Source: an uncultured Armatimonadota bacterium
GTDB lineage: Bacteria; Armatimonadota; Fimbriimonadia; Fimbriimonadales; Fimbriimonadaceae
DNA length: 64,000 bases
Direction of reading: 5' to 3'
Assembly (NCBI GenBank): GCA_903833215.1
Contig: CAILEM010000153.1
Location: forward strand, 62,001-126,000
Shown one piece after another: positions 5,417 through 28,704 of the stretch. The stretch's first letter is position 1, and every line of letters begins with the position of its first letter. The position numbers were made by a program, and so were the translations under genes. The notes under the pieces were generated by a model, which worked only from the letters and a program-made list of their open reading frames with translations, did not search any database and had not been told where the DNA came from.

Positions 5417-5638
5417 ATGAGCTTTGAAGCATATCTGAATAACATCAAGCAAAAAACGGGGAAAACCCCGGAGGACTTTCGGGATGCCGCAGCCGCTGCT
5501 GGCCTCCTTCAACCAGGAACGACGGCAACCCAAATCATTGAGTGGCTCGCCAAAGATTACGATCTCGGACGAGGGCATGCGATGTGCATCTACACCGTGT
5601 TCAAGCATGAAAGCTGGATCGCAGCCAAGCCTAAATGA
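5417..5638 (+). CDS. DUF4287 domain protein
   Basis: A protein of 73 residues (MSFEAYLNNIKQKTGKTPEDF ... DYDLGRGHAMCIYTVFK). The pattern KTGKTPEDF followed by WL...YdLGRGHAMA(I) is the DUF4287 signature. The molecular function of this family is not established. The ATG at 5417 is preceded by GGAGG with good spacing. The last bases overlap the DoxX start (ATGA), so the two are translationally coupled. It is divergent from the TetR gene. Confidence 0.88.
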   Translation: MSFEAYLNNIKQKTGKTPEDFRDAAAAAGLLQPGTTATQIIEWLAKDYDLGRGHAMCIYTVFKHESWIAAKPK

Positions 5639-6033: not shown

Positions 6034-6059
6034 AGACATCCTTTCAATCCGAGTGGAAC

Positions 6060-6680
6060 TCAAAGCTTCTTGACCGGTTGCCGCAGAATCGTTCTTAACT
6101 TATCAGGGGCGACTTTGCGAAAGTCGCTCAAGTAGATCTCATGGTGTTCGCCAGTCATCGTGAACCCCGCGTCGGGGATTGTTCTTTCATGGATCTCTTT
6201 CAGAACCGGTCCCTCATCATCAAAGGAGCCGATGTGAAGCGTCTGGACGCACAACCCTTCGTCAAGCGAGGTAAACCGCACGTTCGCTGTGGTTTGCTTG
6301 CCGGTCTTTGATTCCACTTTGTGCAATGCCTTAGCGAAATGCTCGTCGGTCAACCAATAAGGCACCATCAGCAGAAGCGTCCAGGACCATTTGGACTTCT
6401 CTCGTCGAACGAATGCGTCCATATTCTCCGCTCGCCAGAGAGCTTCCAAAGGAGGAACCACGTAGTCTCTATCTAGCACGTCTTTGCTAAAGAATTTCAG
6501 GGCGTAGGCAATTGGATACAACTGCTCGATAGCTTGCGCGAATGCTGGAGACGTGTTCGGATCACCCGTTCCATCTACCATCAGGTAGCGCATTTTGGGG
6601 ATCGTCACGAATTCGAATTTGCGGTGCTTTGCGGCATAGCTAGGTAGGGTCTTCTTGAAATCAACCTTTGATTCGCCCAT
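6060..6680 (-). CDS. GyrI-like small-molecule-binding domain protein
   Basis: A protein of 206 residues. It shows the features of the stand-alone GyrI-like/SOUL-type family: an N-terminal KTLPSYAAKHRKFEFVTIPKMRYLMVDGTGDPN strand region, FVRREKSKWSWTLLLMVP, and a C-terminal HHEIYLSDFRKVAPDKLRTILRQPV. These proteins bind small hydrophobic or cationic ligands; some hydrolyse cyclopropanoid compounds, which cannot be judged here. No DNA-binding domain is present. It is transcribed alone, facing the DoxX gene. Confidence 0.87.
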   Translation of the reverse strand: MGESKVDFKKTLPSYAAKHRKFEFVTIPKMRYLMVDGTGDPNTSPAFAQAIEQLYPIAYALKFFSKDVLDRDYVVPPLEALWRAENMDAFVRREKSKWSWTLLLMVPYWLTDEHFAKALHKVESKTGKQTTANVRFTSLDEGLCVQTLHIGSFDDEGPVLKEIHERTIPDAGFTMTGEHHEIYLSDFRKVAPDKLRTILRQPVKKL

Positions 6681-7674: not shown

Positions 7675-9366
7675 TCAAACAACTTTGACGAATGGACGGT
7701 CGGGGACAACCTCTCCCTTGATCCAACCTTCCAAATGCATCGTCTCGAATGCTTCCACTGCAAGCAGAGTCGCGTCCTGTATGTCGATATGATCCTGTTG
7801 GATCATACAGTTCACACATTCCTCGAGCACTTTGACACTGTCTGACTCATGCCGCAACACGTTGTACGCGTGCTTAAACGAATCGATGAGTGGGAGTACC
7901 TTCGGGCCACGGCGCAGACACGGAATCGGAAAAACGCGGCCGTTCAGGTAGCGAACAAACTTATCTTCTCTCGCGTCGTCGAGATCGAGGCTCCAGCTGT
8001 TTGTTTTTGCTAATTCCCATTCAGGCTCTGAAGCACCCAGGTGAACAGCTACGAGTTTGAGTCCCGAAACTCGGTAAGTCAGTGCCGCCGCAATGCCTGG
8101 CTCATCAAGAGTGAAACCACCGGTGGCAAGCCATCGGAAAGCAGTCTCGGGATCCAAGGTAAGGCCGGCTTTTTCGGCGATCTCTTGGCAGTAGTCCTTG
8201 AGGTCGGTGAACTGGCCGTTGGAGGAATACCAGAAGTCAGCGAACTGCATATGATGCCGAATCTGGGTGCGGTGCCCCTCTTCGTACTCGTGCTTCAACC
8301 ACTCTGCGTTACCCAAGCCACGATTCAATTCCAGAATCGTAAACGCAACCTTTCGTGCGCTTGTGTGGGCCAACGTCATTCCTGCCGAGAGAATTGGGTC
8401 GGCAAAGCCGCACGAATCTCCGGCAAGAAACCAGTTTTCGCCTACCAGCCTGTCGGATAGGAAGTTCCAGTCCTTGGTTGCAAACAGTTCTGGCTCGGGG
8501 GTCGCTGTCTCCAGAAGCTTTGAGATGAACGGCTCACTGGCCAATGCTTCGTTGTAAAGCTCTTCAACCGTTTTCCCGCTTGCTTTGTAGTAATCCGCAG
8601 GAAGAACCAAGCCGACCGAAGTACGCGTTGGAGTGATTGGAATGAACCAAAGCCATGCCCAGTCCAAGCTCATGATTTGGATTCGGGTACCGCCAATGCC
8701 GATGGAAATCGCCCACGTGGCATCTTGATAGTATTTGTAGAAGGCGATGTTTCTCAGAGCAGTCGGCGCGTCAACCGTGATGTCCAGGGCCCGTCGGAGA
8801 GTTCCGACGTCACCTGAGCAGTCGACGTACCATTTCGCGTCGATGAGTCCGTCATCGCCGATCTCCTCAATAACTTTTGGGTCGTCTGATGAAACTTGCA
8901 GGTGAACTACCCGGTCACCATCCCGTTCGATGTGGACGACTTTGGTTTGCTCATAGACACGAGTTCCCAGCTCTCTCGAATGGTCGAGCAGGATCTTGTC
9001 GTAAATGGATCGGTCTGTTTGAAAGGCAGTGCGCTTCCGTTGGCCGTCGAACTGGGCTGGTCTAGCTTGTTCGATAAATTGTTCAGACTGAAGAAAGTCA
9101 GTATCCCAGAGATCCTTCGTGCGCCCCCATTTGAACGTCGCACCGATCTTGATCGGAAACTCCGCTTCCTCAATCTTGTTCCAGACTCCCATCTCGTCGA
9201 GAATCGCCGAGATCGCAGGCGTGTGACTCTCGCCAATATGCTCACGAGGAAACTGGTCTCGCTCAATGATCGTGACATCGAGAGATGGATTGTATTTCCT
9301 TAACAGCGAGGCGACCGTTGAACCAGCGGGACCTCCTCCAATAATGGCGACATCAGTGTAAAGCAT
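7675..9366 (-). CDS. Flavin-dependent halogenase-like oxidoreductase 1
   Basis: FAD-dependent protein of 563 residues in the tryptophan/phenol halogenase superfamily. Visible features are the dinucleotide-binding GGGPAGS (residues 10-16), the conserved Lys73 within FPIKIGATFKWG (the position linked to hypohalous-acid handling in phenol/pyrrole-type enzymes), the halogenase hallmark WLWFIP (238-243), and GDSCGFADPILSAG (316-329), which holds the FxDPxxSxG motif. If active it would halogenate an aromatic or pyrrole substrate, probably carrier- or protein-bound, using reduced flavin, O2 and halide. A related non-halogenating monooxygenase is the main alternative. It is a close tandem paralogue of gene 2, three bases away and of identical length. 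The ATG at 9366 begins MLYTDVAIIGGG. Confidence 0.8.
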   Translation of the reverse strand: MLYTDVAIIGGGPAGSTVASLLRKYNPSLDVTIIERDQFPREHIGESHTPAISAILDEMGVWNKIEEAEFPIKIGATFKWGRTKDLWDTDFLQSEQFIEQARPAQFDGQRKRTAFQTDRSIYDKILLDHSRELGTRVYEQTKVVHIERDGDRVVHLQVSSDDPKVIEEIGDDGLIDAKWYVDCSGDVGTLRRALDITVDAPTALRNIAFYKYYQDATWAISIGIGGTRIQIMSLDWAWLWFIPITPTRTSVGLVLPADYYKASGKTVEELYNEALASEPFISKLLETATPEPELFATKDWNFLSDRLVGENWFLAGDSCGFADPILSAGMTLAHTSARKVAFTILELNRGLGNAEWLKHEYEEGHRTQIRHHMQFADFWYSSNGQFTDLKDYCQEIAEKAGLTLDPETAFRWLATGGFTLDEPGIAAALTYRVSGLKLVAVHLGASEPEWELAKTNSWSLDLDDAREDKFVRYLNGRVFPIPCLRRGPKVLPLIDSFKHAYNVLRHESDSVKVLEECVNCMIQQDHIDIQDATLLAVEAFETMHLEGWIKGEVVPDRPFVKVV

Positions 9367-19930: not shown

Positions 19931-19950
19931 CAAAACGGATCGGTCATGAA
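19931..19950 (+). repeat. att-like direct repeat, copy A (left outer)
   Basis: CAAAACGGATCGGTCATGAA. It differs at one base from the copy that forms the 3' end of the GNAT gene at 27932. It has the same orientation as copies B and C and lies in non-coding DNA. Confidence 0.65.
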
Positions 19951-20057
19951 GTTTGGAACCTCGACTCTTTGGTTCAAAGCTTCCTCACGTTGTCCCGCCT
20001 TGAAACCAGCTCGGCACCTCTTACGAATAGGTACGCAGAGAGGACTAGAATCTCTGA

Positions 20058-20092
20058 GTTATTAACGAATATCCAAGTTATCCGTTAATAAC
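20058..20092. promoter_or_regulatory. Inverted repeat downstream of fic
   Basis: GTTATTAACG (20058-20067) and CGTTAATAAC (20083-20092) form a perfect 10-bp inverted repeat with a 15-bp spacer. The same half-site and the same spacer occur upstream of fic at 21389-21420. This is a probable protein binding site (two half-sites about two and a half helical turns apart), or a module end. Confidence 0.6.
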
Positions 20093-20148
20093 GGCGGCAA
20101 TTGGACGAATCAACTAACGGCAGGTAGCTATTAAGACACGGGTCGATA

Positions 20149-21354
20149 CTACCGCCCCATCGTCTCTTCAACTAATTCCGGTGCGACGTCCGCTGCGTTG
20201 ACTTCAGAATCGTCAAACATTCGGAAATATCTTTCGTGAAGAAACACCCGATTCCGTGCTTTGCCAGATATTTCTTTGAGGATTTCAAGCCGGACCATTT
20301 GAGTCACCATACGGCTCGCTGCCGGAAATTCTTTATTTGCCATCTGTTGAACAAGGGCTATCGTTACGAACGGATGCTGAAACAACTGCTCATAGAGCTG
20401 TAGCGCTTCAGACGTAGTGCGGCCGAAGCTTATCCTGATCTGTTCCCTCTGTTCCTCCCTAAGCGCAACAATGCGTCGTGCTGTGGTTGCCGCTTCATCG
20501 GCAACAGCCGCAACTCCACGCAGGAAGAATTTCAGCCAACCCTCCCAGTCTCCTTTTTCCCGGACTGCCTGAAGCCGGTCGTAATATTCCAGGCGGTTCA
20601 GCTTGAAGTAGTGAGACAGATAAAGAAGAGGCCGAGCAAGAACTCTTTGTTCACAGAGAAAAAACGTGATCAAGAGGCGGCCAACTCGGCCGTTTCCGTC
20701 CAAAAATGGGTGAATCGTCTCAAATTGGGCATGCGCCAAACCAGCTTTGATCATGATTGGTGCCGGCCGATCATCATGGAGATACTGCTCCCACCCTGCC
20801 AACGCGTCCTTCATATCGGCAGGCGCGGGAGGTACAAATCGAGCCGTGGTCAGACTGCAGCCCTGGGGTCCAATCCAGTTTTGACTGCGTCGGAACTCAC
20901 CAGGATCCCTTTCTTGTCCTCTTGTCCCCTCCATGAGTCGGGCGTGGATCTCACACACCAACCTCAAAGACAAAGGCAGTGATTTGAGACGCTCGATTCC
21001 ATAGTTAAGTGCTTCGACGTAGTTCACGACCTCAGCAACGTCGGATGGCCTGCGAGGGTCAAGTACCTTCGCCTCAAGTTCCAAGACGTCAGCAAGCGAG
21101 GCTTGAGTTCCTTCGATCTGTGAACTAAGGACAGCCTCTTTGCGGACGTACATCATCACAAAAAGGTCTGGATTTGGAAGTGCTTCTGTTGAACCGTCAA
21201 GCCGTCCGAGAGCACGGTCCGCCCTCGAAAGTAGATCCAGCAACTCATCGTCAAAGGTAACGGGAGGAATCGGAGGCAGTGAGTTCGGCACAAAGGCGCT
21301 ATAGCCAGTGGGCTGCCGGATATACACTCCCGCTCGGTTCGAAGTCTGTCGCAT
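20149..21354 (-). CDS. Fic family protein (class II, self-inhibited AMP-transferase) with C-terminal winged helix
   Basis: 401 residues. The Fic core contains the active-site motif HPFLDGNGRVGR (215-226), which binds ATP and transfers AMP (or another phosphate-containing group) to a target hydroxyl. The N-terminal inhibitory helix motif SSQIEG (77-82; [ST]xxxE[GN]) marks a class II, self-inhibited enzyme. The C-terminal 90 residues (EALQLYEQLFQHPFVTIALV...SRMVTQMVRLEILKEISGKARN) look like a winged helix that could bind DNA. A matching pair of inverted repeats flanks the gene. It is not paired with a FicA-type antitoxin. It lies on the integrated island; the target is unknown. Confidence 0.93.
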   Translation of the reverse strand: MRQTSNRAGVYIRQPTGYSAFVPNSLPPIPPVTFDDELLDLLSRADRALGRLDGSTEALPNPDLFVMMYVRKEAVLSSQIEGTQASLADVLELEAKVLDPRRPSDVAEVVNYVEALNYGIERLKSLPLSLRLVCEIHARLMEGTRGQERDPGEFRRSQNWIGPQGCSLTTARFVPPAPADMKDALAGWEQYLHDDRPAPIMIKAGLAHAQFETIHPFLDGNGRVGRLLITFFLCEQRVLARPLLYLSHYFKLNRLEYYDRLQAVREKGDWEGWLKFFLRGVAAVADEAATTARRIVALREEQREQIRISFGRTTSEALQLYEQLFQHPFVTIALVQQMANKEFPAASRMVTQMVRLEILKEISGKARNRVFLHERYFRMFDDSEVNAADVAPELVEETMGR

Positions 21355-21359
21355 CCTGA

Positions 21360-21420
21360 CGTTAATTATGACGACAAGAAATCGTCACTATTAACGGAAA
21401 GGAGTCTTTCGCGTTAATAA
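21360..21420. promoter_or_regulatory. fic promoter/operator region
   Basis: TATTAACG (21389-21396) and CGTTAATA (21412-21419) form an inverted repeat with a 15-bp spacer, 35-66 nt upstream of the fic ATG. A further single half-site, CGTTAAT, lies at 21360-21366 just before the start codon. The identical architecture is found downstream of the gene at 20058. Autoregulation through the C-terminal winged helix is inference. Confidence 0.6.
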
Positions 21421-21450
21421 CTATTACAAATCCGACCAGAACTTTGCTAT

Positions 21451-21470
21451 CAGAACTGATCGGTCATGAA
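21451..21470 (+). repeat. att-like direct repeat, copy B (internal)
   Basis: CAGAACTGATCGGTCATGAA. Together with the preceding CTAT it matches copy C over 24 bp with one mismatch. It marks the junction between the fic module and the integrase-bearing element. Confidence 0.75.
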
Positions 21471-21657
21471 GTCTCAGGCTCAAAATGCCAGGTTCAAGGG
21501 CAAACGCCGGATTCAAACTTCCCCCACGGGCCCCCACAAAAGCCCGTCCGACCCTCCCCAATATCCCCGTTTTTTACCCCGTGCCGACAGCAGGATCGGT
21601 AGGCTCGGTGCAGCAGTCTATGACCGCTAAACTTTGTTCGAGTGGGAAGTCTCGCGA

Positions 21658-22131
21658 CTAAGTGGCCGCGACGGCAGGCATTAAATCGTTTTCCTCTTCG
21701 ATCCGTAGCATGCGGATGTCTTTTACCGACGGGGCAAACCAAGGAAAGGTGGTCCTCAAATCGATAGCTGCCATGACGCAAGTCACGGCGTTGACGGCGG
21801 GACCGCCAAAATACACGCTCCCCTGTTGCCAAGTGAAGCCGTGAACGTCAATAAGCCTTTTTCTGATGTCGCCGTACGCGTTGTTATAAGAAGGCGTCGG
21901 ATACAACGTTTGAAGAATTTGCGTATCGAGATCGAAAGCAATGGCGTACATGGTTCTTTTTCCAATTGAAGGGGGTCGCCGCATCTCGTCCAATTCAGGG
22001 GAGATCCGTACTCCAGATATTAGCCGGTCAAATTGATCCAGTGCTATAGCATCAGCCTCGATTTGGCAACTCTCAGCAATATTGCTGAGTGCCGCAGGCA
22101 CTTGGATTGATTTCGCCTTCGTTACCGCCAT
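21658..22131 (-). CDS. VapD-family endoribonuclease with N-terminal extension
   Basis: 157 residues. From Met61 on, the protein is a full VapD: MYAIAFDLDTQIL, SYNNAYGDIRKRL, HGFTWQQGSVYFGG, VNAVTCVMAAIDL, FPWFAPSVKDIRMLRIEEENDL. This Cas2-like ferredoxin fold is known in some members as an mRNA-cleaving toxin; Asp residues in AFDLD are expected at the active site. The 60 residues before it (MAVTKAKSIQVPAALSNIAE...SPELDEMRRPPSIGKRT) are not part of VapD. They may be a fused or read-through antitoxin-like segment. An alternative start at ATG 21951 would give the normal-length protein. It is carried by the integrative element. Confidence 0.88.
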   Translation of the reverse strand: MAVTKAKSIQVPAALSNIAESCQIEADAIALDQFDRLISGVRISPELDEMRRPPSIGKRTMYAIAFDLDTQILQTLYPTPSYNNAYGDIRKRLIDVHGFTWQQGSVYFGGPAVNAVTCVMAAIDLRTTFPWFAPSVKDIRMLRIEEENDLMPAVAAT

Positions 22132-22857
22132 TGCTCACCTCTCAAATCTTGCCTTGATTATTGGTAAGACGTCGTCTGGAAGGAATACGTTTCGCCGCTA
22201 CCTATTGGAAGCATTGAGGCCTCCGTTGATCTGGTCATGACGATAGGTTCGGCCAGCCAAGCTCGGCAATGGCGATGGAGACCCCACGCGAGCCGAACGG
22301 AGGCCATGGAAGGCCGAAGTGAGAGCGTCGCGAACGATACGAGCGCACCGAGTCCTCAGACTTTAGCCCTTCAGGGCGACCGTGAGCGAAGCGAACACCA
22401 TACCCGTCTCGGTAGGACAGGACGTCCGGCGCGAGAGAGTGAGCGGTGCCATGGATGGCACGGGGGAGGGTCCACCGGAGGTGGAGGGGGCGACTCATCT
22501 ACGGACCTCTCGAACAACGAGCGCGAAGCGCAAACTAAGCCCCCTTAGATACTGCGTGAGCACACGACGTGCGAACTCCTTTTAATAGTGTGCCTGTCGC
22601 CTACCGACTAACTCTCGGATTAGGTCGAGCACCCCAAACGGATGATGAATCCCGCCCGGAGGGTGGGTGAAGATTCCGCGTTTTTGCCTTCCAAAAGGTT
22701 CCCGCTTATGGATGTGGACCGTCGAGCGATAACCGCACTAACGGCATTTATAAAAGCCTTAAATGGGACTCGTGCCGTAAGATCTTGCTTAGGGTGGAGA
22801 CCATGACTCACGGATACTGCCCTGATCGGGAGACGCTCCCTCGGGCATATTTTAGCC
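22132..22857. other. Non-coding tract with GC-rich, strongly foldable segment (about 22240-22560)
   Basis: No convincing gene. A plus-strand frame of 103 codons covers the GC-rich part, but it is low-complexity (Gly, Arg, Ser, Glu). The segment holds nested stems: GTGCCAT/ATGGCAC (22446-22461), CCACC/GGTGG (22472-22484), GGGGGC (22486-22491) pairing with GCCCCC (22539-22544), and GCGC-GAA-GCGC (22521-22531). This may be a structured RNA. A second hairpin, GGGAG-ACG-CTCCC, precedes the gene at 22858. Confidence 0.35.
22743..22758. repeat. TTTATAAA-centred palindromic repeat (copy 1)
   Basis: GGCATTTATAAAAGCC. Identical over 16 bp to the copy at 24286. It lies 100 nt upstream of the gene at 22858. 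Related copies: 23643-23656, 23710, 24206-24219, 25958-25973, 26037. Confidence 0.65.
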
Positions 22858-23247
22858 ATGAAAGAACTCACCATAAAACAAATTCTTAGTAACCCATCGA
22901 TGGTGATGGTTTTCGATGCAGAAAACGAACGTACAGAGTTCGCTTTCTGTTGCCAGGTTTGCGAGAAGCCCATAACTGACCGCGATCTTGGAATGGTCGT
23001 GGCATACAGCCCTACTCAGGGCAGATCACCAATAGTAGAACATCAACCTGGCATCGTTGTCCACAAAGAGAACTGCAACCAAGGTGTCGAACTCGTCTTC
23101 GGACTATGGCAGACAGGGCCGTGGGTATCTCTAGATGGTTTTTGCTTTGAGGCTCTGTCTTACGCCGGAGTAAGTATGGAGATTCAGGGATCTCACCGAA
23201 TTGTCCACGCTCCGGCCTTTGAACTAGACGAAGACGGCCTTTGGTGA
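22858..23247 (+). CDS. Hypothetical protein of the integrative element
   Basis: 129 residues, beginning MKELTIKQILSNPSMVMVFD and ending APAFELDEDGLW. No known family. A CxxC (CCQVCEKPITDRDLG) followed later by His-x4-Cys (HKENCNQG) could form a single zinc site. Cytoplasmic, mildly acidic. No clear Shine-Dalgarno precedes the ATG. A palindromic repeat of the GACAGAA family lies 17 nt after its stop. Function unknown. Confidence 0.5.
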   Translation: MKELTIKQILSNPSMVMVFDAENERTEFAFCCQVCEKPITDRDLGMVVAYSPTQGRSPIVEHQPGIVVHKENCNQGVELVFGLWQTGPWVSLDGFCFEALSYAGVSMEIQGSHRIVHAPAFELDEDGLW

Positions 23248-23263
23248 GTCGCTAAACCATAGC

Positions 23264-23279
23264 GACAGAAAATCCTGTC
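23264..23279. repeat. GACAGAA palindromic repeat, copy 1
   Basis: GACAGAAAATCCTGTC, one base off the consensus arms GACAGAA/TTCTGTC. It begins 17 nt after the stop of the gene ending at 23247. Confidence 0.65.
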
Positions 23280-23400
23280 GGCATTCACGGGTGGTCACCA
23301 AGTACCACCCATGCCAGTTGGATACCGTAGCACCACGCAAAAGGTAGACCTAAATTTCACTATTGGAACTTACTCGTATATTTACCTGAGCATCTTGCCC

Positions 23401-23416
23401 GACAGAAAATTCTGTC
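23401..23416. repeat. GACAGAA palindromic repeat, copy 2
   Basis: GACAGAAAATTCTGTC, consensus copy with AA spacer, in non-coding DNA. Confidence 0.75.
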
Positions 23417-23709
23417 GCGGACATAAGGGTATTGGCAATGCACCCAACGGTGAGTATTCAATCAGGACCTACGACAATCGTATTGATCGTTAGGGCCGGT
23501 ATCAAGACATGTTCCTCCTCGAAGCAGATCCCTTACCCCTCGTCTTTACCGCGACTTACTGTGCGTTAGGACTCGGCAAACTGCTTCGAACGGTAGGCGC
23601 ATTGATGAACCAGCCTCACCAATGGAAGATGAGCCCGAAATTCTTTTATAAATGGCGATCTACTCCGTTCTGTGTCAGAAACCGCAAGACACAGCCGATA
23701 GCTTGCTAA

Positions 23710-23725
23710 GGCCATTATAAAAGCC
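23710..23725. repeat. TTTATAAA-centred palindromic repeat (copy 3)
   Basis: GGCCATTATAAAAGCC, 52 nt before a GACAGAA palindrome. A partial copy (TCTTTTATAAATGGC) lies at about 23643. Confidence 0.55.
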
Positions 23726-23776
23726 TTGAGGGGCAACTCTCGGGTGATCCGACCGGCTGAAAGCGGTGACTAACCC

Positions 23777-23792
23777 GACAGAATTTTCTGTC
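23777..23792. repeat. GACAGAA palindromic repeat, copy 3 (extended)
   Basis: GACAGAATTTTCTGTC with TT spacer. Here the arms extend five more bases on each side (AACCC / GGGTT), giving a 26-bp inverted repeat, the strongest of the set. Confidence 0.75.
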
Positions 23793-24004
23793 GGGTTCTG
23801 CTGGCCTAGTCCCGTCACGGGGTCGTGTGCCGCGTGCTCGTGAGCGCCTGTGCGTCCACGCGTGCGTAAGCCATCTACATATCGCAATTTAATAGCTATT
23901 ATTTATTAAACACTTTACTGAAGGAAGGAGAACCTATAAGGAGAGGTTGGAAGGTCCGGTATAAGGAATGTAGATACACTTTAATCACAATCAATATCTA
24001 TGTC

Positions 24005-24054
24005 GTCTCTTCTTTATTTTTTTCGTTCGCTTCGCTCACTCAAAAAGAAGAGAC
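24005..24054. repeat. 50-nt hairpin in non-coding tract
   Basis: GTCTCTTCTTT (24005-24015) and AAAGAAGAGAC (24044-24054) form a perfect 11-bp stem around a 28-nt loop. The loop contains GCTTCGC, the complement of the very stable GCGAAGC mini-hairpin, which also occurs twice at 22.3-22.5 kb. Confidence 0.6.
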
Positions 24055-24124
24055 TCCTTAATCCGGCCAATTCTCAATATCATTCCCAAGGACGAGAATT
24101 GCAAATCCAAGTGTCTCGATGGGT

Positions 24125-24140
24125 GACAGAAAATTCTGTC
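24125..24140. repeat. GACAGAA palindromic repeat, copy 4
   Basis: GACAGAAAATTCTGTC, consensus copy with AA spacer, in non-coding DNA. Confidence 0.75.
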
Positions 24141-24285
24141 CGGCAAAGCCTGAGCTGCTCTAAAGGTCAACCGTTCCATTGAGCCTCCTCGGCAATGGCC
24201 GTCCATTGCTTTTATAATTGACGGCTCGGCCTCTGGGTGTGTCGTTGCGTCGATGAATAGATGGAGCAGTAGACACAGACTCTCT

Positions 24286-24301
24286 GGCATTTATAAAAGC
24301 C
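24286..24301. repeat. TTTATAAA-centred palindromic repeat (copy 5)
   Basis: GGCATTTATAAAAGCC, identical to the copy at 22743, 1.5 kb away. Confidence 0.65.
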
Positions 24302-24358
24302 AACGTCATGTCAAGGTCCCTTCCCCGGAAAATTGAGGGTTCTCAGAGTTTAACTGCG

Positions 24359-24374
24359 GACAGAATTTTCTGTC
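24359..24374. repeat. GACAGAA palindromic repeat, copy 5
   Basis: GACAGAATTTTCTGTC with TT spacer, only three bases past the stop codon of the minus-strand gene ending at 24378. Confidence 0.75.
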
Positions 24375-24377
24375 GAT

Positions 24378-25232
24378 TCAGATGACTGCGTCAATCGAGC
24401 GCTTGCAATTTGAACACGTGGAAGGGTGGCCGATATTCTTTCGACCACACCGGCATGTCCAGATATGATCTTCTAAAGACCCTTTCTTGGTTGACTGGTT
24501 ATCTGGGACAGGGGGTGACATTTGAACACGCGGAATAACTTCAGATTTGCTTGGCATCGACTTAGGCTGATTCGCCATGATGGCTCGATGGCGAATTGCT
24601 TCAATTCTGGCCGCCCACGTTTCCGTGTCCTGAGTGGAATCCATGGAGAGAACAACTAACGGGTTAGCAGGATGGGAAACGACCAAAGAGAGATAACCCG
24701 CCGTAATCTTGGAGTTCACATCGGTCTTAAGCTTTGTTCCTCCTAGGCCAACGTTTCCAAAGTAGAGCATGTTGCTTGAACCGCTTGTGCTAACGCTTCT
24801 CTTAACGTCGAAATCCTTGGTTACCGACAAGATCTCTGTTGCGTCTAGAACGGTCTTGAAGAAGACCTTTCCGTTTGCAATCCGGACCAAATAGATTGCA
24901 TCGTAGTCGGAGTTCGTCGCTATGATGCACGTCGGGTCTCTGAGTTGAGACGCGTCCGATAATTGGAGTCCTTTGCTTACAAAGAGAGAACTTAGCTCCT
25001 TCTTCCAGCCGCCTGCAAGAAGATCCGCCGTAGCCGATTGAGCTGCAAGAGCCGCTCTTCCTTCCGGCGTTCGTTGTAGCTTTTTGATACTTGCGTATTT
25101 CGTTAGAAAATCTAGCGAATAGAGAAGGCCTACGATGAGGACGACGAGTAAGAGGATGCCACCTACAGTTGATGGATCGCTAATAGCCCATCCGAGAACT
25201 ACAACTACGATTACAGCAATGATGCAACCCAT
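24378..25232 (-). CDS. Membrane protein with C-terminal zinc ribbon
   Basis: 284 residues, unrecognised family. Two N-terminal membrane helices (MGCIIAVIVVVVLGWAI; VGGILLLVVLIVGLLYSL) are followed by a cytoplasmic region of about 190 residues with PH/GRAM-like alternation (LRDPTCIIATNSDYDAIYLV, YLSLVVSHPANPLVVLSMDS). It ends in a four-Cys zinc ribbon (WTCRCG...CSNCK, about 260-277). It lies 27 nt downstream of the small zinc-ribbon gene on the same strand, so the two are probably one operon divergent from the XRE regulator. The pairing suggests a membrane sensor or defence role, but this is not shown. Confidence 0.7.
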   Translation of the reverse strand: MGCIIAVIVVVVLGWAISDPSTVGGILLLVVLIVGLLYSLDFLTKYASIKKLQRTPEGRAALAAQSATADLLAGGWKKELSSLFVSKGLQLSDASQLRDPTCIIATNSDYDAIYLVRIANGKVFFKTVLDATEILSVTKDFDVKRSVSTSGSSNMLYFGNVGLGGTKLKTDVNSKITAGYLSLVVSHPANPLVVLSMDSTQDTETWAARIEAIRHRAIMANQPKSMPSKSEVIPRVQMSPPVPDNQSTKKGSLEDHIWTCRCGRKNIGHPSTCSNCKRSIDAVI

Positions 25233-25259
25233 AAAGAATGATCCGATAGCGTGACGGTG

Positions 25260-25448
25260 TTACCGGTGACTGGCTTGAGCAAAGAGTGAAATGAGCACCA
25301 TTAGGCCAAGGAATGCAAGCACGTACTTTGCTATTAGCATTGGATAATTTGCTTGGTCCATGGGGTGACCACACTTTGGGCAAGTGCTAGCCGATTTTGA
25401 GAGGCTATTTCCGCAGGCCGGACAGTCGATAAGTGCTTTCTGCTTCAT
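25260..25448 (-). CDS. Small zinc-ribbon, single-helix membrane protein
   Basis: 62 residues: an N-terminal zinc ribbon (CPACGNSLSKSASTCPKCG) followed by one membrane helix (KYVLAFLGLMVLISLFA). This is a typical compact zinc-ribbon/TM protein, with Cys pairs for one zinc. It is the first gene of a two-gene unit with the larger zinc-ribbon membrane protein. It is divergent from the XRE regulator across 134 bp. Confidence 0.75.
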   Translation of the reverse strand: MKQKALIDCPACGNSLSKSASTCPKCGHPMDQANYPMLIAKYVLAFLGLMVLISLFAQASHR

Positions 25449-25582
25449 GGTTCTAGGAATTCCAAACTTTCACCGCTAAAATCGAGCGAATTCTCGCCGA
25501 ATCAACCGAACGGGTCAGCTAACTGGCCGATCACCGGAGGATATCATAACTTACATGTCTTCATGCCGCCATGTTCGATTGA

Positions 25583-25849
25583 ATGGGCAAAAGGGTCGTG
25601 GCAAGTCTCAGGACGGAGGAGCATAGAACGTTAATAGCGTTGATTAGAGCCGCCCGAGTGGAGAGCGGTCTCTCACAAAATGAAGTTGGAAGACTTGCAA
25701 ATCTTTCTCAGCCCGTACTCAGCGCTATAGAGGCCGATGACCGGCGGTTGGACGTGGTCGAGTTCTTGGACCTTGCCGAAGCCATCGGTTTCGATGCTTT
25801 TGAGATGCTTCGGACAATCAACGACGCTCGCAAGAGTCAGAAACCCTGA
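25583..25849 (+). CDS. XRE-family helix-turn-helix regulator
   Basis: 88 residues. The Cro/C1-type HTH is clear: LIRAARVESGLSQNEVGRLANLSQPVLSAIEADDRRLDVVEFLDLAEAIG. A single domain with short tails, typical of small element-borne repressors. Divergent from the zinc-ribbon pair; a natural candidate for binding one of the two palindrome families on the element, although no copy lies in the 134-bp divergent gap itself. Confidence 0.9.
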   Translation: MGKRVVASLRTEEHRTLIALIRAARVESGLSQNEVGRLANLSQPVLSAIEADDRRLDVVEFLDLAEAIGFDAFEMLRTINDARKSQKP

Positions 25850-25898
25850 TGCTTGGAAGTGGTCGTCCGACTCCTGGGCGACTCCGGCGGCTGGACTT

Positions 25899-25914
25899 GA
25901 CAGAAAATTCTGTC
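25899..25914. repeat. GACAGAA palindromic repeat, copy 6
   Basis: GACAGAAAATTCTGTC, arms extended by T/A. It lies 50 nt after the XRE gene stop and 1.5 kb from copy 5. TTGACA, a possible -35 element, overlaps it. Confidence 0.75.
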
Positions 25915-26036
25915 AGACCAAAACTCGTGAACATGCTCTAGTCGAAGGCTTTCTCTCGCCTTTTATAATTGCTTCCTAGCGGCTCCAAAGCTGAAACGGG
26001 GTTTCGTGGGTGTGACGGTACGAAGAGTCGGCCCAC

Positions 26037-26051
26037 GGCTTTTATAAAGCC
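26037..26051. repeat. TTTATAAA-centred palindromic repeat (copy 7)
   Basis: GGCTTTTATAAAGCC; the arms GGCTTT and AAAGCC match perfectly. Confidence 0.6.
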
Positions 26052-26205
26052 GGGTTCATGCGGTGGCCTAGCCAAGTCTTCGGAGCATTGTTGCGGACGC
26101 ACCGTCAATTTGCTCGAAACTGCTCAACGATACTTGACAGCTATCGGTCCCCAACAAGCTTCATGTACATCGTAATCCGCTGACCCACGGGCAGAGAAAA
26201 ACAAC

Positions 26206-26451
26206 ATGAATGAACAAACCGTAACGTTTAACGCGTCGGACCTCATTCCACGACCGGTATCGCATTATGCGGAGCTTGGGGATAAAGCTGAATCGATCTT
26301 GAACCGCTCGTGCGCTCAAGATTCAGTCTCTGGAGCTTTCAAGCGCGAAAAGGAGTGGGGAGGCTCCCCGCTCCTCTCGATCTACCGCTACTGTTTGCGT
26401 CAACGCCCCTATCGTCAGCAATTCGGGGGTGTCTATGTCTGCTTCTGCTGA
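26206..26451 (+). CDS. Possible leader or small protein upstream of excisionase
   Basis: 81 codons from ATG 26206 (MNEQTVTFNASDLIPRPVSHYAELGDKAE). The first 35 residues look like protein. The rest, including a run through a strong hairpin (26351-26375), does not. It overlaps the start of the excisionase-like gene. It may be a leader peptide or a truncated gene; no family is recognised. Confidence 0.3.
   Translation: MNEQTVTFNASDLIPRPVSHYAELGDKAESILNRSCAQDSVSGAFKREKEWGGSPLLSIYRYCLRQRPYRQQFGGVYVCFC
26351..26375 (+). promoter_or_regulatory. Strong hairpin upstream of excisionase-like gene
   Basis: AGGAGTGGGG / CCCCGCTCCT forms a 10-bp stem (one G.T pair) with a 5-nt loop, 60 nt before the excisionase start. 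There is no T tract after it. An attenuation or mRNA-stability role is possible. Confidence 0.45.
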
Positions 26452-26731
26452 GACACCTACATTTGAACCGGTGGGTCGTGCCTATGACGCCTTGGCGGTT
26501 AAGCTTCTCTATACGGTCGATGACGTCGCGGCTTTGTTGGCGGTCGGAAGATCGACCGTAGAAAAACTGATCCATGACGGTTACTTGGCAAGCGGGATAG
26601 TTCAGGGAACGGAGCGTTCCCGTCGAATCAGTCGAAGACAAGTTGAAGCCTTCATAGAGCAGTTCGACGGCGCGTTCCCATCTTCCGGCAAGCCAAAGTT
26701 CATCCGCAAGCCACGGAAGCGAATCGGTTAG
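26435..26731 (+). CDS. Excisionase-like helix-turn-helix protein
   Basis: 98 residues. It contains a MerR/excisionase-type HTH of the DNA-binding domain found in Xis-like proteins: KLLYTVDDVAALLAVGRSTVEKLIHDGYL...RSRRISRRQVEAFIEQ. It ends in a basic tail (KPKFIRKPRKRIG). The ATG at 26435 (or GTG 26429) follows GGGGG. The stop overlaps the integrase stop on the other strand by two bases. It probably directs excision of the element with the adjacent integrase. Confidence 0.85.
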   Translation: MSASAETPTFEPVGRAYDALAVKLLYTVDDVAALLAVGRSTVEKLIHDGYLASGIVQGTERSRRISRRQVEAFIEQFDGAFPSSGKPKFIRKPRKRIG

Positions 26732-27900
26732 CCCAACTCCATTGCTGATCGGATGTCGTCGTCGGTCGCCCTGACGTAATACTGCATCGTAGTCTGTAGC
26801 TTGGAGTGCCCCGCAATCTTCATGAGGACGTGAGGCTTAACGCCCCTTCCGTCGTTGGAGTCGTTCGCCAAGAACGTGAGAAAGCTAGACCGGAAATCGT
26901 GATGAGTCGGAATAGGCTTGCCGTCGCTCCCATCGAATCCAGCGGCTAGGACAAAATCCTTTATGAGCACTGAACCGTTTTGCGCACTATACGAGTCTCC
27001 GTTTCGAAGGCAAAGACGCGCATTCTTCCCTGATCTGACGACCGGCAGGGAATCCCGAAAATAGCCAATCAAGTCTTCAGAAATTGGAAGGTCTCTTTTC
27101 CCGGCCAACGACTTGGGGGGAACGACCATCAGCCCCTTCCCGACGACGCTTTGCAGTTGTTGGCGTACCCGAATGACTCGCTTCTCCAGGTCTACGTGCT
27201 TCCATTCAAGACCAAGACATTCCCCAAAGCGTAAGCCAAACCGAATGCCAAGAATGACGGGCCAAAACATCGGCGTTTCTTTGGCCGCGTCAACCAAGCG
27301 ATCCATTTCGTCAGTGGTCAAGATCCTCTTCGCCAGCTCAAGTTCGTCTTCAATGACGACCATGTCTTTGATCTTCGCGGCCCGGCAAGGGTTGACCGGT
27401 ATCAAACCCTGATTCATCGCCCTCGTTAACGAGGACGCAACGGCGGTCTTGACTCTCACCGCTACATGAATTCCATCCGACTTTTTCAGGTCGTTGAAGA
27501 AGATTTGAAGCGCCGGTGCCGTAATGTCGTCAATTCGAACCCCACCAAGTTTCTTGAATACTCTCGTCGTCAGCCAGTGGCGATAGTTGTCAACGCTCGT
27601 GGGAGCAAGTTCGTTAGGCCAAATTTCGGAGAGGCAATGTTCGCTCCACGTCTGGATTGTCCAGCCTCGTTGGTTGGCACCCTCATTCCGGTTGTACTCG
27701 TCAAACGCAGCGTCTCGTGAAACGATGGCGTCCTTTTCGGAAGCTCGGCTACCGTGCTTTCGAAACTGCGTCCCGTCACGGCGGGTGATCGAAACTTCCC
27801 ATTGCCACTTGCCGTGGCGGTCTTGCCAGACGTTCCCGCCCTTCTTATCCCTCGGTGCCCGGTGCGCTTTTGCCATGTTGCGGGGAAGATTACCCCGCAA
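26728..27900 (-). CDS. Tyrosine recombinase (phage-type integrase)
   Basis: 390 residues. An N-terminal AP2-like/arm-binding region (WQDRHGKWQWEVSITRRDGTQ) is followed by a SAM-like core-binding domain (about 80-175) and a catalytic domain with Arg224 (GLRFGECLGL), HDFR (334-337), GHS (His365) and the nucleophile Tyr374 in TTMQYY. All residues needed for strand exchange are present. The gene starts 31 bp from the right att-like repeat, so it most likely catalyses insertion at the 3' end of the GNAT gene. ATG 27900 or 27876 could be the start. Confidence 0.95.
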   Translation of the reverse strand: MRGNLPRNMAKAHRAPRDKKGGNVWQDRHGKWQWEVSITRRDGTQFRKHGSRASEKDAIVSRDAAFDEYNRNEGANQRGWTIQTWSEHCLSEIWPNELAPTSVDNYRHWLTTRVFKKLGGVRIDDITAPALQIFFNDLKKSDGIHVAVRVKTAVASSLTRAMNQGLIPVNPCRAAKIKDMVVIEDELELAKRILTTDEMDRLVDAAKETPMFWPVILGIRFGLRFGECLGLEWKHVDLEKRVIRVRQQLQSVVGKGLMVVPPKSLAGKRDLPISEDLIGYFRDSLPVVRSGKNARLCLRNGDSYSAQNGSVLIKDFVLAAGFDGSDGKPIPTHHDFRSSFLTFLANDSNDGRGVKPHVLMKIAGHSKLQTTMQYYVRATDDDIRSAMELG

Positions 27901-27930
27901 TTAACCCCGTTTCGCTTTGATTTGAACCTA

Positions 27931-28704
27931 TCAAAACTGATCGGTCATGAACATTTGCGGGAGGCCGGGGATGTTGTGGCCCATTAGGTAGAGGTCGACT
28001 TCGGGATTTGTGATGGGGATTTCGAATTGGTCGGCCATGAAGGTGGTGCCGAACCACTCGGTGCCAGGAGGGAGAGGCATCGCGTCAACCGGGGTCTCGA
28101 AGATGTGCTCGCGCAGCACGTTCGGTTCGAAGCAGACGTAGCCGGATTGGAAAGGCGTGCAGATTCGGTAGTGCCACTTCCAATAGCTCCAACGCTTCTC
28201 GTCACGCCGAAGCCGATCGGGATGCGCTTCGCTCCAAGCGTTGTATTTGGCCTCCACTGTGTCGAAGTCGAAGCAATCGGGAAGGTCGTCTTCCATCGAA
28301 GTCGTCAACGGACCACGCACGACACGATCAAGCGGTTCGAATCCGTTGCGCTCGTAAAACCTCAAGTCACGCGCGAAAAGCAGGGCACCTGGCTCTCCTC
28401 TCAGCTCGGATTCCTTGATGACCTTTTGGAGCAACCGAGAAGCATGGCCTTCGCTCATGCGGTCTGCTTTGGTTGCGACGCCAGCAATCCCAAATGCACG
28501 TCCCCAACCAAACTCAAGGGGGCTCGTGGTGAGGATTGAGACCATCTCTCTGCCCTCAAACAACGCCCACTTGCGATTGAGATCGTACATCGGCTCGGTG
28601 AAGAACACATCGTAAGCGCGATTGAAGTCGAGGCCGAAGGCATCGCACATCACATGAAGGAAATCTTCTCCTTCCTCTTCTCGTATCGTGCGAATCTCGG
28701 TCAT
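27931..28704 (-). CDS. GNAT N-acetyltransferase (Eis-like), host of the integration site
   Basis: 257 residues. The N-terminal GNAT domain has the acetyl-CoA loop region VATKADRMSEGHASRLLQKVIKES, and FYERNGFEPLDR. The C-terminal part (WYKWH-type core, then TTFMADQFEIPITNPEVDLYLMGHNI) resembles Eis-type enzymes. The substrate is unknown. Start overlaps the CdaR stop by four bases, which links it to the c-di-AMP operon. The last six codons and part of the stop are supplied by att-like copy C, so the gene end has been rebuilt by the integrated element. Confidence 0.88.
   Translation of the reverse strand: MTEIRTIREEEGEDFLHVMCDAFGLDFNRAYDVFFTEPMYDLNRKWALFEGREMVSILTTSPLEFGWGRAFGIAGVATKADRMSEGHASRLLQKVIKESELRGEPGALLFARDLRFYERNGFEPLDRVVRGPLTTSMEDDLPDCFDFDTVEAKYNAWSEAHPDRLRRDEKRWSYWKWHYRICTPFQSGYVCFEPNVLREHIFETPVDAMPLPPGTEWFGTTFMADQFEIPITNPEVDLYLMGHNIPGLPQMFMTDQF
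27932..27951 (+). repeat. att-like direct repeat, copy C (right end)
   Basis: CAAAACTGATCGGTCATGAA. On the minus strand it encodes the GNAT C-terminus FMTDQF and most of the stop codon. The integrase gene begins 31 bp to its left. Confidence 0.78.

Follow-up and report, generated by a model that had tools for sequence, protein, structure and literature searches.

A two-motif array of GACAGAA palindromes and AT-rich sites in a small Armatimonadota integrative element: putative protein-binding sites of a possible origin or mobilisation region

The window, as we call the whole 64-kb stretch of DNA that was analysed, comes from a genome of 6.22 Mb that is 99.97% complete. It carries a 6.5-kb integrative element (21447..27951) inserted at the 3' end of a GNAT gene (27931-28704, - strand) and bounded at each end by a 24-bp direct repeat of family D5, att left (CTATCAGAACTGATCGGTCATGAA, 21447..21470, + strand) and att right (CTATCAAAACTGATCGGTCATGAA, 27928..27951, + strand). 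These ends had escaped the first-pass annotation. A tyrosine integrase of 390 aa adjoins the right end (26728..27900, - strand). The element also encodes an excisionase-like HTH_17 protein of 100 aa (26429..26731, + strand), an XRE/HTH_3 regulator of 88 aa (25583..25849, + strand) and a zinc-ribbon protein. A VapD-like cargo protein (21658-22131) matches NCBIfam VapD at 6.6e-11, which is under the cut-off. The structure predicted for a 129-aa ORF was uninformative (pLDDT 35). With at most 1 mismatch, the att sequence is present in 16 of the 20 genomes of the genus, and those with a single att copy likely represent the empty insertion site. Direct repeats, an integrase and an att common to relatives, as expected of an integrative element at the GNAT gene, are all found.

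Tandem accretion is seen at this gene (window 19934-27951), with att copies at 19934 (1 mismatch), 21454 and 27935; the element is preceded by a 1.5-kb piece that contains a Fic gene (20149-21354) and lacks an integrase. The non-coding left end of the element (21454-21581, 128 bp) is 87% conserved in genome G022 and 80-87% conserved in two elements of genome G020 with unrelated cargo, and probably serves as a recombination arm. WTWHCCCCG pairs, spaced by exactly 12 bp, occur at both element ends (starts at 21561, 21573, 27889 and 27901) and make up 4 of the 10 occurrences in the window. They are likely the arm-type sites of the integrase and a better candidate for that role than the palindromes described below, which were rejected as such.

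Six copies of the palindrome GACAGAA-WW-TTCTGTC lie in the element, at the positions given in the first-pass annotation. Copy 1 (23264..23279, AA centre) has 1 mismatch, while copies 2 (23401..23416, AA), 3 (23777..23792, TT), 4 (24125..24140, AA), 5 (24359..24374, TT) and 6 (25899..25914, AA) are exact. Copy 3 is indeed part of a 26-bp inverted repeat (23772-23797), copies 1, 5 and 6 follow stop codons at distances of 16, 3 and 49 nt, respectively, and the gene model applied here places all copies outside coding sequence. The centre is always AA or TT, in the window and in relatives, and never AT or TA. With up to 3 mismatches allowed, the window contains exactly these six sites, and 100 dinucleotide-preserving shuffles gave a mean of 0.88 sites and never reached six. 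Genome-wide, at most 2 mismatches being allowed, there is a single additional site (2 mismatches, contig C12), and a reversed-pattern control also yields 1. Abundance of the 16-mer elsewhere in the genome, which had been named as the observation that would make it a general repeat, is not seen: outside the element there is no site with fewer than 2 mismatches.

Two further features had been overlooked: a second motif, GGCTTTTATAAWTGCC, present in seven copies in this element, and the regular alternation of the two motif families. The copies of the second motif are an isolated one, GGCTTTTATAAATGCC (22743..22758, -), followed by 23641..23656 (+), 23710..23725 (-), 24207..24222 (+), 24286..24301 (-), 25958..25973 (+) and 26037..26052 (-), the last being the weakest and almost symmetrical. 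In the rest of the genome, sites resembling the second motif show no excess over chance. With G for the palindrome and T for the second motif, the 13 sites run T, G, G-T-T-G, G-T-T-G, G-T-T; the paired T sites face each other, with T-T spacings of 69, 79 and 79 bp in the three units. A sequence near 26136 (GACAGCTATCGGTC) was considered as a third right-hand palindrome, but it is a half-site at best and was left uncounted. Non-coding DNA makes up 44% of the element and contains all 13 sites; in random placement trials, all six palindromes fell in non-coding DNA in 0.6% of cases and all seven second-motif sites in 0.3%. Nine of the 13 are found in a non-coding region of 1.13 kb (23248..24377) between two convergent genes, which also contains an AT-rich stretch (about 23875-24100; 32-38% GC against 53% for the window). 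One arm of a 15-bp perfect inverted repeat, GTTCGCTTCGCTCAC (24025-24039 and 22382-22396), sits in this stretch, within a larger hairpin, GTCTCTTCTT...AAGAAGAGAC.

The sequences flanking the palindromes do not align to one another, so these are conserved sites rather than copies of a longer repeat. A dispersed repeat or MITE was discarded on the same ground and for want of copies with fewer than 2 mismatches elsewhere in the genome; a site for a host global regulator was rejected because the 16-mer is absent from the rest of the genome. G018, a genome from a different species of the genus, has an element inserted at the same GNAT site, with an integrase that is 39-40% identical. Two palindromes, GACAGAATTTTCTATC and GACAGAAAATTCTATC, lie in this element at a distance of 260 bp and enclose one second-motif site. 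Scored with a matrix derived from the copies in the window, the enclosed site reaches 22.8, compared with a best score of 16.9 in 1.9 Mb of unrelated loci. Both G018 palindromes end in TTCTATC, that is, the site has drifted in concert. Exact 16-mers, unrelated flanks, this concerted drift and the restriction to one element family indicate that the palindromes are under selection as protein-binding sites, which is the most secure part of our interpretation. They agree with the earlier suggestion that the binding protein recognises a specific sequence and is probably a dimer. Rather than being a general repeat of the genome, the array is probably a landing pad that belongs to the element and serves a replication or control protein.

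The XRE regulator, proposed in the first-pass annotation as the binding partner, is unlikely to fill this role. No site and no inverted repeat with 5-bp arms is found in its promoter (25440-25600), and the palindrome-bearing elements of G018, G020 and G022 lack a close XRE homologue. An XRE operator would be expected in the regulator's own promoter and would travel with the regulator, and neither is seen here; similar sites are not clearly enriched in 14 loci around XRE relatives. In HipB/XRE multi-operator promoters, one dimeric HTH protein has several palindromic operators, and these lie in the promoter of its own gene; the XRE promoter of the window contains none. In a broader alternative, the sites form an operator array for an element-encoded regulator (the XRE protein, the HTH_17 excisionase or an unrecognised protein) that silences or organises transcription, the CTTTTATAAWTG motifs being promoter -10 elements. 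Such an array is possible, if somewhat unlikely. A/T-centred palindromes are typical operators, XRE and HTH_17 proteins are both encoded in the element, and the second motif contains TATAAT or TATAAA; indeed, the best sigma-70-like match of the region takes the copy at 24207 as its -10. However, most copies of the second motif have no good -35 in front of them, and the motif was not retained as a promoter, this being the only reasonable match. Moreover, five of the palindromes lie between convergent genes, where a promoter is not needed, the XRE promoter has no site, and the XRE protein is not common to the elements that carry sites.

The position of three palindrome copies after stop codons raises a different alternative, namely that the units are transcribed and the palindromes form hairpins that end or stabilise transcripts. 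Folding is more stable than in shuffles for one unit of the window (24120-24380, z -4.2) and for that of G018 (z -5.6), but not significantly so for the unit at 25890-26160 (z -1.1), and the stability is mostly due to the palindromes themselves. The exact copies lack a T-tract; none of the five has the form of a Rho-independent terminator, and only copy 1 approaches it, on the minus strand and with a weak tail. It is also the sequence that is kept rather than the pairing, which is broken in copy 1 and in the second-motif pairs, and Rfam gave no match. A structured RNA or terminator function is improbable.

When 291 genomes of the phylum were scanned for exact matches, with TTCTATC allowed, the palindrome was found at GNAT-site element loci in four genomes of one genus. 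Outside those loci the scan detected only two isolated single copies, so that clusters are confined to these elements. As a control, a second site (at most 2 mismatches) was present in 2 of the 212 unrelated loci that hold one site, which is about chance. Single-copy matches in viral contigs fit chance too, and no relatives of the integrase or of Rep were found there; a viral origin was therefore rejected. No plasmid relatives were found.

In G018, the unit begins about 8 nt past the stop codon of a 274-aa ORF bearing the HUH motif NPHIHLLLD. This ORF is homologous to one in G020 that matches the Pfam rolling-circle Rep family REP_ORF2-G2P (4e-9). A comparable layout is seen in G054, where the Rep homologue precedes an AA-centred palindrome of other sequence, ACGATTAAAATCG, present in three copies and directly succeeded by a GNAT-type att. 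The G054 palindrome has one more copy elsewhere in its genome, and the second motif is absent from its vicinity; the integrase of this element sits on a separate contig, to which the join is inferred. Overall, repeated palindromes accompany Rep in two of the four close Rep-bearing loci, the Rep element of G020 being without any. Three other elements, with integrases 37-49% identical, have neither Rep nor repeated palindromes. The divergent HUH Rep family has matches in 9 of the 291 genomes and is found on Armatimonadota integrative elements (L333 141-1166; L053 14477-15361; L101 3997-4821; L334 5196-6275).

G020 and G022 have single copies of the palindrome in att-flanked elements without an integrase. 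The flanks of these copies are related to those of window copy 1, and about 60 bp separate the palindrome from the att in G022. This relationship (the 47 nt starting at copy 1 match the G022 element end at 81%), together with the frequency of tandem elements at the GNAT site, could mean that every palindrome marks the end of a once separate att-flanked element and was kept by accretion. Such an origin is very improbable. The flanks of copies 2-6 resemble neither the G022 end nor one another, and decay would not have left the 16-mers between them exact. CIMEs and tandem accretion (PMC5704250) are similar in that integrase-less att-flanked neighbours are stacked at one site, as in G000, G020 and G022, but they account for the surroundings and not for the palindrome array.

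The first-pass annotation had alternatively proposed a replication or partition site cluster. Such a cluster is compatible with the data, and it is the replication part that is favoured, by the adjacency of Rep in two related elements. The partition part, a centromere-like site of the excised circle, is hardly to be expected: palindromes are repeated over several kilobases, but neither ParA nor ParB appears in the Pfam results for the element's proteins, and at 6.5 kb active partition is unlikely. Rep adjacency in two elements, the location of the main array between convergent genes and the AT-rich stretch lead us to favour an origin-like role. Our preferred, though tentative, reading is that the array is specific to the element and bound by a protein, and that it most likely acts after excision as an iteron-like origin or as a mobilisation region, the Rep gene being missing from the window copy. 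Of the features of an iteron-type origin, multiple near-identical non-coding repeats and an adjacent AT-rich stretch are present, whereas a cognate Rep gene in the same replicon is lacking from the window element. A search for HUH motifs in the element gave no convincing ORF, and no Rep homologue was found in it or in the whole genome. Since no Rep homologue is found in this genome, and the link of Rep with palindromes holds in just two of the four close Rep loci, the origin reading is kept tentative and weight is left to the operator array. Retention of the palindrome near the att in the integrase-less G022 elements speaks for an origin; against it, three or four array units per element exceed the need of a single origin.

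According to this origin model, an element-specific dimeric protein would bind the palindromes, which form half of a two-motif array (a GACAGAA site, two CTTTTATAAWTG sites, a GACAGAA site, repeated). The array would act in cis as an origin or mobilisation region upon excision of the element. The binding protein may be a Rep-like initiator, and a second protein may act, or the DNA may open, at the AT-rich second motif. Because the window element has no Rep gene, its array would depend on a different factor, or its partner would have been lost recently. A bolder version, speculative and rather unlikely, is that palindrome, inverted TATA-like pair and palindrome make up a novel two-protein cis-region, at which replication or mobilisation starts in a new family of small Armatimonadota elements parasitised by Rep-less array-keepers.

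By analogy, the nearest precedent is SGI1, an integrative mobilizable element with a proven iteron oriV directly downstream of rep (PMC7433901). In SGI1, which has int and xis, the repeats are non-coding, follow rep immediately and border AT-rich DNA, a layout that G018 matches. However, the iterons of SGI1 are direct repeats and its theta initiator is of the Rep_3 type (PMC5704250), whereas here there are palindromes and a second motif, the Rep of the relatives is of the HUH type, and the window element has none. Small integrative elements that carry rolling-circle-type proteins are frequent (PMC5704250). ICEs and IMEs with a rolling-circle-type Rep or relaxase, such as ICEBs1 and Tn916 (PMC5704250, PMC4595007), resemble the present family in small size, an integrase with an excisionase, an HUH protein (here in the relatives) and structured non-coding DNA. 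They differ in that no nick site or single-strand origin motif was identified here and no conjugation genes were seen. Repeated binding sites in mobile elements are already known, while the two-motif arrangement and the element family are new; a limited literature search returned no papers on mobile elements of Armatimonadota. An origin kept by Rep-less elements would offer a compact case of satellite-like elements that borrow replication in trans, and an operator array would amount to ordinary regulation of a mobile element. The array also supplies a putative binding-site sequence that could be used to fish out its protein.

Some further features of the related loci may be mentioned. In G020, copies of the att lie at 5512, 10173 (diverged), 12045 and 17434. 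In its locus L053, a 53-bp module upstream of the palindrome (6044-6096) is repeated 3 kb away without a palindrome (9122-9174), and the module is present at the G022 element end too. Two loci of G022, L051 on contig C31 and L052 on contig C47, are identical over their first 141 bp, from the palindrome to the att, after which another element or the GNAT gene follows. The shared 141 bp could be either a repeated element end or the mark of a population mixed for the insertion.
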